From Armatimonadota bacterium (lineage in GTDB: Bacteria > Armatimonadota > Hebobacteria > GCA-020354555 > CP070648), in the NCBI GenBank assembly GCA_020354555.1, contig CP070648.1, forward strand, positions 1,059,154 through 1,102,973: a stretch of 43,820 bases of DNA, written 5' to 3'. Shown in pieces: positions 7,718-35,449 of the stretch. The position numbers and the translations under genes are program-made. Position 1 is the first letter of the stretch, and every line of letters starts with the position of its first letter. A model generated the notes under the pieces. It was not told the DNA's origin. It made no database searches and saw only the letters and a list, made by a program, of their open reading frames with translations.

Positions 7718-8221
7718 ATGGATCTGTTCGAAGCCATCGAGAAGCGCGCTTCCGTCCGCAACTTGCAGCCGGTGGACATCACTGACGCCGACCTCAACCG
7801 CATCCTCGACGCAGGGCGCAGGGCGCCGTCGGGCTACAACCGCCAGCCCTTCGAGCTCATCGTCATCCGCGAGCCGGGGTCGCTCGCCAAGCTCGCGGAA
7901 TCGCAGGCCTGCATCGGCGATGTGAATACGGCAATCGCGGTCGTCGCCGACCCGGACATGTCGAAATACTGGCTCGAGGACCTTTCCGCCGCGACCGAGA
8001 ACATGCTGCTCGCCATTACCGCGCTCGGGTATGCCACAGTGTGGGTCGAGGGGCGCATCCTGCCCAACGAGCACGAACTCAAGCACATGCTCGGGGTGCC
8101 GGAGAAGCTTCGCCTCATGGTCGTCCTGCCCGTCGGCAAGGCGCTCGGCATGGCCAAGCAGGCCGACAAGCGCCCGCTCGAGGAGGTCGTCCACTACGAG
8201 CACTATGGCAGCCGCGGGTAG
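7718..8221 (+). CDS. Nitroreductase-family FMN-dependent oxidoreductase
   Basis: A compact 167-residue member of the nitroreductase family (NAD(P)H-dependent FMN enzymes, usually dimeric, cytoplasmic). The FMN-binding N-terminus is RASVRNLQ (phosphate-binding Arg and Ser), followed by RRAPSGYNRQPFELIVI. The middle has a TENMLLAITALGYATVWVEG helix pair, and the C-terminus ends KRPLEEVVHYEHYG, all family hallmarks. Start is ATG 7718 after AGGAGGT with a 7-base spacer; the frame opens three codons earlier, but that start is worse placed. No membrane segment. Natural electron acceptor unknown. It stands alone between the phosphodiesterases and the PL22-like gene. Confidence 0.9.
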   Translation: MDLFEAIEKRASVRNLQPVDITDADLNRILDAGRRAPSGYNRQPFELIVIREPGSLAKLAESQACIGDVNTAIAVVADPDMSKYWLEDLSAATENMLLAITALGYATVWVEGRILPNEHELKHMLGVPEKLRLMVVLPVGKALGMAKQADKRPLEEVVHYEHYGSRG

Positions 8222-8290
8222 AGGCGCCGTGTCGGCATAAGGCAGGTGCCGGAGGCGGGGCCCGTCGGCGCAGCGGCGGAGCCCGGGCGT

Positions 8291-8316
8291 GTCATTCCAA
8301 GCGCAGCGAGGAATCT
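8291..8316 (+). repeat. Half copy of a dispersed palindromic element
   Basis: This stretch (starts GTCATTCCAAGCGCAGCGAG) matches 20 of 26 bases with 33001-33026, which is the left arm of a long hairpin element. Here the right arm is missing. Elements of this general form (GTCAT-CC-GCGAAGCG-GGAATC) recur between genes in many environmental bacterial genomes. It sits 34 bases before the ATG of the propeller gene, so it would be in its 5' leader. Confidence 0.6.
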
Positions 8317-8349
8317 CGGTCGCGATCGGAGCTGAAAGGCGAGGCCCAT

Positions 8350-9495
8350 ATGCCACTCGCGGATGTGACGCAAATCGCTTTCGAGACTCTCGCCGATCCC
8401 GATACCGGCGTCGATGTCACCCGTGTGAGCGACGACCACGGCGACACCATATTCCCGTACTTCACGCAGGTGCTGTTCACCGACGACGGTGAGGACCTGC
8501 TCGTGAGCAGCAACCGTACGGGGACGTGGCAAGCTTACCTGCTCTGCGTATCTACCGGCGAGTTGCGGCAGCTCACGGACGAGCCCGAAGGCATCCGCGC
8601 GCACGGCTCCACGGTGCTCCCGACGAAAGGGGCGGTCGCGTTTCTCACCGGCAACGTGCTCAAGCGCGTCAACCTCGACGGCTCCGGCACGCGGACGCTC
8701 TACGAGGCGCCGCAAGGCTTCAGCCCCTCCATCCTCGCGCCGTCCGCCGATGGCGCGTCGGTGACTTTTGCGTACAGCGAGGGGCTCGCACTCTCCACCG
8801 AAACCGGCCGCATCTACTCCACGATGGCTGAGCGCCTCTACCGCCGCCCGGCGAGCGTCGTTATGCGCGTGGACACGGAATCGGGAGCGGCGGCGGCGCT
8901 GTGGGGCGAGCGCGAATGGATCAGCCACGTCAACGTCAGCCCGGCGGACGGCGATATCGTCGTCTTCTGCCACGAAGGCTCATGGCACCTCGTCCAGCGC
9001 ATGTGGACACTGCGCGCGAGCACCGGCAAGGTGTGGCCGCTCGTCGAGCAGAGGAGGCTGCTCGAACGCTCCGGGCACGAGTTCTTCACGCGCAGCGGGC
9101 GCGTCGTGACGCAGTACTCCTGGCGTTTCCACGCGAGCGCCAAGGACTGGGTACCGCTCGATGTCTTCGTCAACCCCGATGGGAGCGCGCCGCAGGCGTT
9201 TCGCTACCTCCACGGCCGGCCTTCGCACGTCCAAGTTGCTGGCGACGAGGCCCTCGGCGTCGGCGACTGCGCGTTCCCGTCCGCGGGCTTCGCCGACGGT
9301 CGCAGCTACATGGGGCTCATCCGTTATGAGGACGAGCGGGCCGTCATGACCGCGCTGTGCCGCCACGACTCGTCATGGCTCACCCAGCATTCCCATCCAC
9401 ATCCGATCTTCAGCCCGGACGACCGCTGGGTCTACTTCAACACCGACCGCGGTGGGCGCTGCAACATCTACCGCGCGCCGGTGCCATCGCCCTGA
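8350..9495 (+). CDS. Oligogalacturonate lyase-like (PL22-type) beta-propeller protein
   Basis: A 381-residue protein with TolB/WD-like propeller blades: FPYFTQVLFTDDGEDLLVSSNRTG near the start and HSHPHPIFSPDDRWVYFNTD near the end. It also has VNVSPADGDIVVFCHEGSWHLVQRMW. The His-rich HSHPH segment and CHEG-W-VQRMW are features I associate with oligogalacturonate lyases of polysaccharide lyase family 22, which split unsaturated digalacturonate from pectin in the cytoplasm using a metal held by His and Gln. No signal peptide, in agreement with that role. Start is ATG 8350 (MPLADVTQIAF); the long upstream open extension inside the nitroreductase gene is chance. Another oligosaccharide or a merely propeller-type function is possible. 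Confidence 0.72.
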   Translation: MPLADVTQIAFETLADPDTGVDVTRVSDDHGDTIFPYFTQVLFTDDGEDLLVSSNRTGTWQAYLLCVSTGELRQLTDEPEGIRAHGSTVLPTKGAVAFLTGNVLKRVNLDGSGTRTLYEAPQGFSPSILAPSADGASVTFAYSEGLALSTETGRIYSTMAERLYRRPASVVMRVDTESGAAAALWGEREWISHVNVSPADGDIVVFCHEGSWHLVQRMWTLRASTGKVWPLVEQRRLLERSGHEFFTRSGRVVTQYSWRFHASAKDWVPLDVFVNPDGSAPQAFRYLHGRPSHVQVAGDEALGVGDCAFPSAGFADGRSYMGLIRYEDERAVMTALCRHDSSWLTQHSHPHPIFSPDDRWVYFNTDRGGRCNIYRAPVPSP

Positions 9496-31847: not shown

Positions 31848-31902
31848 TGGTTTTGTGTTGCCTGCTGCGGCGACGCCCTCCCGCTTCCCCGGAGTATCCG
31901 TT

Positions 31903-32721
31903 GTGGCCGACGAGGAGACAACGCATCTAACCGATCACGACGCGACGGCTGTGCGCCGGATCCGCAGGGCGACGCCGCAGGGCGCCGAGGAAATCGAAGA
32001 CGCGCTCGCGGTGGAGCGCCGGCTGCGCTTCACGCTCAACGGTCGTGAGGTGGCGGCCGTGATGTGTTCGCCCGGCCACGAGGACGAACTCGGGGTCGGG
32101 CTCGCGTTGACACAGGGGCTCATCCGCAGCGCAGCCGACCTGCTGTCCGTGGGGCTGCGCGGCGATGCCGAGAAGGGCGACGCGGTCCGCATCGTCGTGC
32201 CCGTTGAGCTGTCGCTCAGCGTCGCGGGCCGCGTGACCGCCCGCGGCACGGCGGGCGGTGTGGTGCAACTCGAGGAGGAGTTGCCGGTGCTGGAGGGCGA
32301 TGGGCCGAGCGTGACCAGCAAGGCGCTGCTGCGCATGGCGCAAGGACTCTCGGCAGGCCAGACGATATACGCGCGAACCGGCGGCACCCACGGCGCGGGC
32401 GTATTCACAGCGGACGGCGGGCTCATAGCGCTTCGCGAGGACGTGGGTCGCCACAATGCCGTGGATAAAGCGATCGGCCACTGTCTCCTGGCGGGGGAGT
32501 CGCTGGCGGACAAAGTGCTGGTCATTTCCGGCAGGGCGAGCCGCGAGATGGTAACCAAGGCCGCGCGCGGGGGCGTGCCCATTCTCGCTTCCGTGTCGGC
32601 AGCCACCGATGCGGGAGTGGACGTCGCGGAGCGGTGCAGACTCACCCTGGTCGGGTTTCTTCGCGATGAGCGGATGAACGTCTACACATGCCCGCACAGG
32701 ATCGCGGCTGCTGATCGGTGA
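31903..32721 (+). CDS. fdhD: FdhD-family formate dehydrogenase sulfurtransferase, lacking the CxxC loop cysteines
   Basis: 272 residues. FdhD carries sulfur from the cysteine desulfurase IscS to the molybdenum cofactor of formate dehydrogenase. Family marks are clear: RLRFTLNGREVAAVMCSPGH, ARTGGTHGAGVFTADGG and the hallmark REDVGRHNAVDKAIG, then VISGRASREMVTKAARGG and a DERMNVYT end. The usual sulfur-carrying CxxCG loop is missing: the equivalent stretch reads ARGTAGGVVQLEEEL, with Gly where both Cys should be. Four other Cys exist elsewhere (MCSPGH, HCLLA, ERCRL, YTCPH). GTG 31903 has CGGAG 8 bases ahead and suits the promoter; GTG 31855 is the alternative. Followed by the small Cys protein and moaA, but no formate dehydrogenase is in the window. 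Confidence 0.87.
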   Translation: MADEETTHLTDHDATAVRRIRRATPQGAEEIEDALAVERRLRFTLNGREVAAVMCSPGHEDELGVGLALTQGLIRSAADLLSVGLRGDAEKGDAVRIVVPVELSLSVAGRVTARGTAGGVVQLEEELPVLEGDGPSVTSKALLRMAQGLSAGQTIYARTGGTHGAGVFTADGGLIALREDVGRHNAVDKAIGHCLLAGESLADKVLVISGRASREMVTKAARGGVPILASVSAATDAGVDVAERCRLTLVGFLRDERMNVYTCPHRIAAADR

Positions 32722-32779
32722 GTCGGCCGCTTGGTCTCGCATCTCCGCGCCGCGATGATGGTCACGGGAGAAAGGTGCC

Positions 32780-32989
32780 ATGCCGCGAGGAAAAGGGGAG
32801 CCCGACCCGAACATAGTCGTGCCCGACGACGTAGCCGCCATGATAGAGAAACGCGGCGGCGAAGCCATAACCTGCGCCGAGTGTTTTGAGATCGCCGAGC
32901 GCACGGGAGCCGCACGCCGCGTCGTGGGCGAGGCCGCAAACCGAGCCGGCGTGCGCATTGTGCGCTGTCAGCTCGGGTGCTTTGATTGA
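32780..32989 (+). CDS. Small four-cysteine protein between fdhD and moaA
   Basis: 69 residues from ATG 32780, with GGGAGAAAGG close upstream. It has an N-terminal basic-acidic stretch and two cysteine pairs: ITCAECFEIAERTG (CxxC, about 32-35) and RCQLGCFD at the very C-terminus (CxxxC). The central RTGAARRVVGEAANRAGVRI reads like a small helical or helix-turn-helix segment. The paired Cys could hold zinc or an iron-sulfur cluster, or carry sulfur. I do not recognise a named family. Its position 58 bases after fdhD and 99 bases before moaA suggests a role in molybdenum-cofactor or formate-dehydrogenase maturation, but that is only guilt by association. Confidence 0.7.
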   Translation: MPRGKGEPDPNIVVPDDVAAMIEKRGGEAITCAECFEIAERTGAARRVVGEAANRAGVRIVRCQLGCFD

Positions 32990-33088: not shown

Positions 33089-34096
33089 ATGACGTCGACT
33101 GACTCCAGTAAGCCGCCGATTCTCGATTCCTTCAACCGCGCGTTCCGCTACCTGCGTGTATCGGTCACCGACCGCTGCAATCTCCGGTGCCGCTACTGCA
33201 TGCCGCCCGAGGGCATACGCCTGCTGCGGCACGAGGACATACTGACCTACGAGGAGATCGCGGCGGTGGTGCGCGCGGCGGTCGGCCTTGGCGTCACCAG
33301 CGTCCGCATCACCGGCGGGGAGCCTCTGGTGCGGCGCGACCTGGCCGGCCTCGTCGCTCTGCTGCGCGACATCGAGGGGCCGGCAGACATCAGCCTAACC
33401 ACCAACGGCGCGTTGCTCGCCGGTGCCGCGGCGCCCTTGGCGCGAGCGGGTATCAACCGCGTCAACGTCAGCATAGACAGCCTCGATCCAACTGAATACG
33501 CGGCAATCACGCGCGGCGGCGACCTGGGCGCCGCGTTGGCGGGCCTGAATGCAGCGCTCGAAGCCGGGTTGAGCCCGGTCAAGGTCAACGCCGTGATGCT
33601 CGGCCGCAGTGGAGGAGAGGAACTGCGCGACTGGATGGCCTCATTCCTCGACTTGGCTCGAAGGCTCCCGTTACACGTGCGTTTCATCGAACTCATGCCG
33701 ATGATTGAGGGTGCACCGTCGGCATGCGGCGGCCCTGCGGCCGCAGATGTGATCACGGCTCTGGGGGCGACGCCCGCCGGGAACGTCGTGGCCGGAGCAG
33801 GGCCGGCCCGCTATTGGCAGCTCGACGGCGCACCCGGGTCGGTGGGCCTAATCGCGCCGCTCAGCGAGCCATTTTGCGACCGCTGTAACCGCCTGCGGCT
33901 GACCGCCCGCGGCGAAATACGCAAGTGCCTCTTCTCTGCGCCTGACATTGACCTCATGCCCGTGCTGCGCCCGCGGATTGAGCCCCATGCCATAGGACAA
34001 GCCCTGTGCCGGGCGTGGGTAACCAAGCCGCAAGGCGGCGAACGCCTCCCATCCGGCGACGTCGTCCGCGCCAGCATGTGCCAGATCGGCGGGTAG
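33089..34096 (+). CDS. moaA: GTP 3',8-cyclase MoaA (radical SAM, molybdenum cofactor step 1)
   Basis: 335 residues. MoaA uses S-adenosylmethionine and two [4Fe-4S] clusters to rearrange GTP toward cyclic pyranopterin monophosphate. The N-terminal cluster motif CNLRCRYC (C30, C34, C37) and the SAM-binding TGGEPLVR are present. The C-terminal cluster, which binds GTP, has C263, C266 and C280 (CX2CX13C, within FCDRCNRLRL...IRKC). The protein ends in the double Gly GG that the enzyme needs. Start ATG 33089 has a weak GAG ribosome-binding site and follows the hairpin element. MoaC, needed for the next step, is not in the window. The MFS gene starts six bases past the stop. Confidence 0.97.
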   Translation: MTSTDSSKPPILDSFNRAFRYLRVSVTDRCNLRCRYCMPPEGIRLLRHEDILTYEEIAAVVRAAVGLGVTSVRITGGEPLVRRDLAGLVALLRDIEGPADISLTTNGALLAGAAAPLARAGINRVNVSIDSLDPTEYAAITRGGDLGAALAGLNAALEAGLSPVKVNAVMLGRSGGEELRDWMASFLDLARRLPLHVRFIELMPMIEGAPSACGGPAAADVITALGATPAGNVVAGAGPARYWQLDGAPGSVGLIAPLSEPFCDRCNRLRLTARGEIRKCLFSAPDIDLMPVLRPRIEPHAIGQALCRAWVTKPQGGERLPSGDVVRASMCQIGG

Positions 34097-34102
34097 CGCG
34101 TC

Positions 34103-35449
34103 GTGGCAGGCACCTCCGGCGTCAGCCATATCGCCCCCGACCTTGCCGAGCGCCCTACCGAGCCGGCCGCGGCGTACCCGCACACCCGCTGGAACTTCAC
34201 CGTCATCGTCACTGATGCCAGCGCGTTCATGACGGGCCTCGCCTTCGCCAGCCCGATGATCGTCATCCCCTTGCTCGTGGAGCGCCTTACTGGCTCGACC
34301 GTGCTCGTCGGCCTCGTCATCGCGCTCCAAATGGCAGGGTGGGTGCTGCCACAGCTTCCGGTCGCCAGCGCGGTAGAGCATCGGCCGCGCAAGAAGCCGT
34401 TCATGCTGAAGGTGTGTTTGCTGGGACGACTGCCCGTTGTGCTCATCCCGTTCGCGCTCGTGGTACTCGCGGGCCGCCCACACCTCGTGCTCGCGGTTCT
34501 TCTCGCCGTGCACTTCCTGTTCTTCCTGAGCGACGGCATGACGGGGGTGCCGTGGACCGATATCGGTGCCAAAACCATCCCCCCACGCCTGCGCGGGCGC
34601 TTCTTCGGGACAATGCAGCTCGTTGCTGGCACTCTTTCCGTGCTCGCCGGCGTCGCGGTGCGCCGCATCCTCGATGACCCGCGGCTGCCGTATCCCAGAG
34701 ATTATGCGCTGCTGTTCACCATCCAGTTCGCCCTGATCATGGTGTCGTGGGTATTCCTGGCGCTGATCCGGGAGCCGGTGCGGCCGGTACGCGCCGAGCG
34801 CCGCGGCCTGCGGCGGATGCTGCGCGATGCGCCGGGGCTGCTCGCCGGCAATCCGCAATTCCTGCGGCTCATCATGGTCATGGCGCTCGTCGGCGTCGGC
34901 TCCCTGGCGGTACCGTTCTATGCGGTCTACGCAACTGAGAAGCTCGGGGTGGCGGAGGCGATGGCGGGGTTCTTCATATCAGCGCAGATGGCGGGCGGCA
35001 TCGTTTCCAGCATGGTGTGGGGACTGCTGTCGGATCGGCGCGGCAGCAAGCGGGTCGTCCAGGGCACTACGATCTGCAGTCTCGGCACGCCTCTCGTCGC
35101 CCTGCTCGTGCCGCTCGTACTGGCGCGGCACACTCCGGGCGCGCTGGCCTACGGCTACGCCCTGACCTTCTTCCTGCTCGGCGCGACATTCAACGGAACG
35201 TGGATCGGGCCGACGAACTTCGTGCTCGAACTCGTGGGGGACGAAGAACGGCCGTCGTACGTCGCGCTGCTCTACGCCATGAGCGCGCCGCTCGTGCTGC
35301 TTCCGATCATCGGGGGCTGGCTGATTCGGGTGACGTCCTACCAGGTCGTCTTCGTCATCGCCGCTCTGTGCGGAGCCATCGCGGTCGGCGCGACCGCGTG
35401 GCTGCGCGAACCGCGGGATGCGGCACGCCGCGAGACCTCCGCCGCTTGA
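34103..35449 (+). CDS. Major facilitator superfamily transporter
   Basis: 448 residues, about 12 membrane helices in two halves. The first begins FTVIVTDASAFMTGLAFASP; the second begins LIMVMALVGVGSLAVPFYAVY. A cytoplasmic middle loop RPVRAERRGLRRMLRDAPG divides them. A WTDIGAKTIPPRLRGRFFG segment after helix 4 and GLLSDRRGSKRVV in the second half are the MFS D-R/K-rich loops. GTG 34103 is six bases from the moaA stop, so it is probably in the same operon, though substrate (molybdate, formate or something unrelated) cannot be read from sequence. The end lies only nine bases from the converging tilS stop. Confidence 0.85.
   Translation: MAGTSGVSHIAPDLAERPTEPAAAYPHTRWNFTVIVTDASAFMTGLAFASPMIVIPLLVERLTGSTVLVGLVIALQMAGWVLPQLPVASAVEHRPRKKPFMLKVCLLGRLPVVLIPFALVVLAGRPHLVLAVLLAVHFLFFLSDGMTGVPWTDIGAKTIPPRLRGRFFGTMQLVAGTLSVLAGVAVRRILDDPRLPYPRDYALLFTIQFALIMVSWVFLALIREPVRPVRAERRGLRRMLRDAPGLLAGNPQFLRLIMVMALVGVGSLAVPFYAVYATEKLGVAEAMAGFFISAQMAGGIVSSMVWGLLSDRRGSKRVVQGTTICSLGTPLVALLVPLVLARHTPGALAYGYALTFFLLGATFNGTWIGPTNFVLELVGDEERPSYVALLYAMSAPLVLLPIIGGWLIRVTSYQVVFVIAALCGAIAVGATAWLREPRDAARRETSAA

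Follow-up and report, generated by a model that had tools for sequence, protein, structure and literature searches.

A three-cysteine protein encoded between fdhD and moaA, from an unnamed family often found among molybdenum-cofactor genes

The question

In the stretch of Armatimonadota DNA analysed here (43,820 nucleotides of contig CP070648.1, hereafter the window), a gene for a small cysteine-containing protein lies between fdhD and moaA. What might such a protein do there? How some FdhD proteins work without a CxxC motif is described as an open question in one study (PMC6239281), and the initial annotation proposed that the small protein might be the missing sulfur carrier of a cysteine-less FdhD, or else a metal-binding partner.

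The gene and its locus

The locus has the following features:

32780..32989, + strand: gene for the three-cysteine (C...CxLGCF) protein, 69 aa, ATG start, from the open reading frame and its translation
32766..32775, + strand: putative ribosome-binding site GGGAGAAAGG, read in the sequence and plausible
31855..32721, + strand: fdhD (PF02634, 2e-65; TIGR00129, 3.9e-55), given from the first GTG of the frame, the true start being perhaps downstream
33089..34096, + strand: moaA (TIGR02666, 3.7e-92), with CxxxCxxC at C30, C34 and C37

The gene starts 58 nt past the fdhD stop and ends 99 nt ahead of moaA, all on one strand. Judged by their profile matches, its neighbours are certainly FdhD and MoaA. 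Downstream of moaA, in the same orientation, lies a gene for an MFS transporter (window 34103-35449).

As translated, the protein carries C32-x2-C35 and C63-x3-C67. It is encoded by a single copy in its own genome, where two further matches (L002 and L003) were rejected as chance. A 74% identical copy was found in G001, the only other genome of the taxonomic family compared, and likewise lies directly behind fdhD. The two copies differ at 10, 8 and 35 sites in codon positions 1, 2 and 3, respectively (dN 0.16, dS 1.12, dN/dS about 0.15). Because the substitutions fall mostly at third codon positions, the gene is real and constrained; it is under purifying selection. The 69-residue protein described as wedged between fdhD and moaA was thus borne out as a real gene with a syntenic copy. 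In G001, which represents a sister genus, an extra gene on the minus strand (L004:290-1606), resembling uroporphyrinogen decarboxylase by eye, lies between the three-cysteine gene and a downstream moaA fragment.

A widespread and unnamed family

A single-sequence search with the window protein gave no relative in genome contigs, viral contigs or plasmids, because the family is too divergent for such searches. A two-sequence profile run against 291 genomes of the window's phylum identified one distant relative worth naming, L006, with the C-terminus CELGCF. With the resulting three-sequence core profile, 12 of the 291 Armatimonadota genomes matched at E 1.7e-9 or better, with background from 7e-4; the weak matches in this phylum (those at E 7e-4 to 0.05, and L005 and L007-L010 from the two-sequence profile; L005 and L007 were inspected) were excluded from all counts.

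A profile scan of genome contigs then gave 332 relatives among 351 stretches selected by pattern. The best 80 of the 332 were kept; these lean towards the query, and the search pattern demanded C63-F68. The relatives came from Heliobacterium, Thermodesulfovibrio, Desulfobacca, Geotalea, Methanospirillum, Chloroflexi and others. Profile searches found the family in 9 of 82 genomes of the class of Heliobacterium chlorum (G334, locus L111) and in 94 of 198 genomes of Desulfobacterota (the phylum of G318, with locus L092 of Desulfobacca). The window protein itself matched the family profile (alignment A4) and has all three cysteines. On these sequence criteria, it is a member of a widespread, unnamed family that extends across bacteria and archaea.

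No match to the window protein was found in Pfam or NCBIfam at E<=1, and no model in either collection covered the three-cysteine domain in ten varied relatives. Among PDB sequences, no relation to the family was detected beyond chance or designed repeats. The FdhD-NarQ profile (PF02634) did not match the window protein at E<=1, and the Pfam and NCBIfam profiles of sulfur carriers (TusA/SirA, DsrC/TusE, MoaD/ThiS) matched neither this protein nor the ten relatives. Within the literature searched, the family turned up in no published description, a statement confined to that literature. The earlier remark that the protein has no named role agrees with the empty Pfam, NCBIfam and PDB searches.

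Conserved cysteines and predicted fold

The domain comprises about 57 residues with the consensus GxIxCxxAxxxAxxLGVxxxxVGxxxNxLxIKIRxCQLGCF. The corresponding features in the window are:

32873..32875, + strand: codon of C32, the invariant first cysteine (C in 76 of 76 rows of A4 and in 119 of 119 domain copies), outside the search pattern
32882..32884, + strand: codon of C35, a position without a conserved cysteine in the family (A in 68 and C in 2 of 76 rows of A4; A in 109 and C in 3 of 119 copies)
32966..32983, + strand: C-terminal CQLGCF, in which C63, L65, G66, C67 and F68 are invariant in A4
32825..32962, + strand: helix 16-25, strand 29-31, helix 32-42, helix 46-56 and strand 59-61, predicted by AlphaFold2

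Across the 119 domain copies, C63 was kept in all, C67 in 117 and the final F68 in all; the two losses of C67 are both in first repeats of tandem proteins (L101 and L114). The 119 copies include such first repeats as well as 39 loci found by profile, and are less biased than the 80 selected by pattern. The pattern fixed C63-F68; the unbiased test of conservation is limited to C32 and to those of the 119 copies that were not chosen by pattern. Of the two cysteine pairs noted initially, C63/C67 is family-wide, while the CxxC created by C35 is a local addition.

AlphaFold2 modelled the window protein with a mean pLDDT of 75.6 and a pTM of 0.55, the tail being less certain (pLDDT 65-69 in the last block). 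The relative L073 was predicted with a pLDDT of 83.8 and a pTM of 0.58, and has the same helix-strand-helix-helix-strand topology. In the predicted model, C32 opens helix 2 after the first strand, whereas the other two cysteines, C63 and C67, come after strand 2. It may be guessed from this arrangement that the three cysteines are close in space, and the domain is predicted to be helix-turn-helix-like.

Foldseek gave no structural match at E<=0.001. In fold searches, homeodomains, L11 C-terminal domains and NuoE-type domains appeared at Z 5-6, which is middling and at noise level; the best VIA fold rows had Z 5.0 with an rmsd of 1.9 over 46 aligned residues and Z 5.8 with an rmsd of 2.2 over 48. 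An L11 or homeodomain fold, seen in rows at Z 5-6, was not adopted, nor was a NuoE-like N-terminal fold, the family profile giving no match to the NuoE of L006. NfnC (9bov_C) was also set aside, with a Foldseek E of 3.4 and no link found in the papers searched.

FdhD loop cysteines

The FdhD of the window differs from its relatives in one loop:

32245..32262, + strand: FdhD loop GTAGGV instead of SSCGxCG, from alignments with relatives

The claim that this FdhD lacks its own cysteines holds for the loop, which has no CxxC, and fails for the rest of the protein, where four cysteines are present (71, 210, 261 and 279). The loop without cysteine and the position of the 69-residue gene directly behind fdhD are what a sulfur carrier standing in for the missing CxxC would predict. 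The FdhD of G001, with one loop cysteine, is in line with this reading. To compare genomes, one FdhD per genome was taken and its loop judged by eye in an automatic alignment.

FdhD and the family co-occur in Armatimonadota, since FdhD was found in 11 of 12 family-bearing genomes versus 59 of 279 others. A CxxC loop was read in 5 of 11 family-bearing genomes of this phylum versus 45 of 57 without the family (p 0.055), the FdhD loops of G012 and G019 being unreadable. Nevertheless, the trend was reversed in the taxonomic families f42 and f45 together, with CxxC in 4 of 8 genomes with the three-cysteine family versus 0 of 5 without.

In the class of Heliobacterium, for which 50 of 72 FdhD-bearing genomes were read, all nine family-bearing genomes have a one-cysteine loop, whereas 40 of 41 others have two cysteines. 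This fit may represent a single lineage and hence one event. Among the FdhD genes of this class (L164-L166 and L241-L287), the loop reads TGCGKG in the nine genomes with the family and mostly SCCGKG, ACCGKS or SGCGKC in those without. From fifty other family-bearing genomes, 30 loops were read, with two cysteines in 7 cases (6 CxxC and 1 CC), one in 21, and none or an unreadable loop in 2. FdhD was found in 41 of these fifty genomes and none was shown in 9.

The largest control, Desulfobacterota, does not follow this pattern. FdhD was found there in 71 of 94 genomes with the family versus 59 of 104 without (p 0.007), and 23 of the 94 family-bearing genomes show no FdhD. One-cysteine loops are the rule whether the family is present or absent. 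CxxC was read in 16 of 58 genomes with the family versus 8 of 54 without (Fisher p 0.11), a slight lean against the proposed link, based on 112 of 130 FdhD-bearing genomes and with several misaligned rows (e.g. G318, G497, G566 and G603) scored as not CxxC. An FdhD with CGxCG is also retained in several individual family-bearing genomes (G230, G261, G280, G283, G289 and the genomes of L059, L060, L062, L063 and L066).

A cysteine-poor FdhD as the cause of the family's presence was rejected on the Desulfobacterota control. The check proposed initially, co-occurrence of homologues with cysteine-less FdhD, therefore went against the proposal in the phylum where it could be applied most widely. 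The premise of cysteine replacement is itself weakened, because one report states that FdhD group III shows no conservation of CXXC and that the FdhD cysteines are not essential (PMC6239281). A carrier dedicated to replacing the FdhD motif is highly improbable. Taken together, the family tracks Mo/W metabolism and not the cysteine state of FdhD.

The window's genome has one further peculiarity. The FdhA-like gene L162:1330-3327, the only full-length PF00384 gene found there, reads DFSSRPQ where six aligned FdhA relatives read DHCAR(L/I/T)CH, a seventh having no residues at that place; a serine replaces the catalytic cysteine or selenocysteine. This serine-type FdhA may bear on the loss of loop cysteines in the window's FdhD.

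Fusions and gene neighbourhoods

The three-cysteine domain is fused to MobB in L087 (PF03205, 7e-9), to MobA in L070 (PF12804, 8e-36) and to a ModE-type HTH in L079 (TIGR00637, 4e-15). Tandem copies of the domain were found in L098, L101, L103, L114, L116, L119 and L131. Within a flank of up to 8 kb, and with Mo-cofactor genes called by home-made profiles, a core Mo-cofactor gene was present at 50 of the 80 loci (a raw count from the best 80 of 332 relatives), and at 42 of 71 loci outside the window's phylum. By arithmetic, chance would place a given single-copy gene this close, within 8 kb, in <1% of genomes of usual size. The genes near the 80 loci were those for MobB (29), MoeA (24), MoaA (19), MoaC/Mog (18), FdhD (15) and MobA (8). 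The fusions and this proximity uphold the link to molybdenum-cofactor genes that had been read from the window alone.

According to Pfam, the next downstream gene (n=98) encodes a radical SAM protein in 26 cases, 9 of them also with Mob_synth_C and hence MoaA-type, MoeA_N in 14, a cytochrome c assembly protein in 14, NUBPL/ParA in 8, FdhD in 2 and MobB in 2. The upstream gene (n=83) encodes a metallo-beta-lactamase fold in 10 cases and a MobA-like protein in 3. In two loci, the three-cysteine gene is directly followed by a single open reading frame of 414-416 aa (L062:4474-5724 and L066:8129-9373) that matches both a MobB-like and an FdhD profile and appears to encode a MobB::FdhD fusion.

The available flank of 30 of the 80 loci holds no core Mo-cofactor gene, and some of the loci without Mo genes lie beside genes for radical SAM proteins of other kinds, for CoA-dehydratase activases or for Mrp-type ATPases. 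The role may thus be wider than molybdenum. The domain could be an iron-sulfur or metal module in general use among anaerobes and recruited only sometimes to Mo-cofactor operons, as the 17 non-MoaA radical SAM genes, the 8 NUBPL/Mrp-type ATPases and the 14 cytochrome c assembly genes downstream would suggest; tandem copies also often stand apart. Nevertheless, the recognised fusions were to MobB, MobA and ModE-type domains, and several CcsB cases adjoin a MobB that either carries the domain or has it as a neighbour. This reading is regarded as doubtful, although conceivable.

The ModE-type neighbours raise another alternative, a DNA-binding Mo/W regulator with a helix-turn-helix in which the cysteines would respond to a metal, a cluster or the redox state. 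The predicted fold is compatible with it. A ModE-type DNA-binding domain is fused in L079 and adjacent in L102, MobB::ModE-HTH fusions follow the three-cysteine domain in L052, L056, L057, L061 and L065, and the three-cysteine gene often stands immediately before moeA. However, L079 already has a dedicated ModE HTH, so that the domain looks like an effector and not a DNA reader, and fusions with MobA and MobB would be odd for a repressor. A DNA-binding role is accordingly judged unlikely. The five MobB::ModE-HTH proteins (that of L052 at 8108-8932) combine a MobB-like P-loop with a ModE-type DNA-binding domain, and no molybdate-binding domain was reported in them.

Proposed role and comparison with known systems

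The preferred reading, given an even chance of being right, is that of a three-cysteine metal ([4Fe-4S]) accessory or sensor module acting in late Mo/W-cofactor biosynthesis with MoeA, MobB and some ModE-type HTH domains. C32, C63 and C67 would be metal ligands, the likeliest case being a [4Fe-4S] cluster that has one open iron; the three cysteines are invariant and no other polar residue is, which suggests a site for a soft metal or a [4Fe-4S] cluster. The accessory or sensor role would fall late in the pathway, where metal is handled, a stage suggested by the MobB and MobA fusions and by the operons with MoeA. The partners of the domain there would be MoeA and MobB, joined in some lineages by a ModE-type DNA-binding domain. 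Of the two roles proposed initially, the metal-binding partner is retained in that the invariant cysteines look like metal ligands, the metal site itself being predicted from sequence.

ModE (TIGR00637 DNA-binding domain plus molbindin domains) carries a molybdate-binding sensor part behind its HTH. Sensing is possible for the three-cysteine domain because in L079 it stands behind a ModE-type HTH, at the position of the ModE sensor. Unlike ModE, the window protein has no match to the ModE DNA-binding domain (TIGR00637) and bears cysteines, and the family profile A7 finds no match in the ModE part of L079. Molbindin domains are not known to use cysteines. MobB (PF03205) is fused or adjacent in many loci, but it is a P-loop protein, to which the three-cysteine domain would be an add-on. 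FdhD/FdsC, the sulfurtransferase-chaperone of PF02634, is encoded by the neighbouring gene and likewise brings cysteines to Mo-cofactor maturation; it differs in that it has no sequence match to the family, which occurs also with normal FdhD and in genomes showing no FdhD. By sequence comparison, the window protein thus leads to a three-cysteine family that is widely conserved, has no name and is linked with the genes of the Mo/W cofactor.

PA1006 of Pseudomonas is TusA-like, and its cysteine motif differs from that of the window protein, which has no Pfam match to a sulfur-carrier family. The likeness is that PA1006 is a persulfide-modified cysteine protein needed for molybdenum homeostasis (PMC3568144). 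A sulfur carrier of wider use would hold a [4Fe-4S] cluster with extra sulfide, or a persulfide on the CxxxC tail, for general Mo-cofactor sulfur chemistry. LarE of Thermotoga maritima offers a parallel in its three conserved cysteines, for which a tri-Cys [4Fe-4S] cluster passing a non-core sulfide is proposed (PMC9283937), and the second cluster of MoaA is held by three cysteines, according to another report (PMC5352715). Radical SAM or cluster-carrier genes are often neighbours. The extra sulfide proposed for LarE lends a sulfur role some plausibility. However, LarE is a PP-loop enzyme with no relation in Pfam or NCBIfam scans of the three-cysteine family, and these scans found no relation to a known sulfur-carrier family. 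The wider carrier is considered distinctly unlikely.

The preferred metal module could take a more specific form. MoeA1-MobB is described as a tungstate-insertion platform with MobA and FdhD downstream, and the role of MobB as uncertain (PMC13197769). On the MoeA-MobB platform, the tri-cysteine domain would be an unrecognised late Mo/W factor that takes up metal displaced from molybdopterin or, alternatively, supplies Mo/W insertion with reducing power or with sulfide bound to its cluster. It would double as the metal sensor of those ModE-type regulators without molybdate-binding domains. This combined scheme is speculative and quite unlikely to be right as it stands. The conserved domain, fused to MobB, MobA and a ModE-type HTH, nonetheless offers a small, defined candidate for the metal-handling step, which would matter for making active Mo/W formate dehydrogenases; the cysteine-less FdhD is not the first idea to pursue.

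In the phylum of G318, L085 and neighbouring loci show another setting, with the three-cysteine gene standing between a metallo-beta-lactamase-fold gene and a Mrp-type ATPase near MrpORP, an arrangement that recalls Mo-Cu orange-protein operons.
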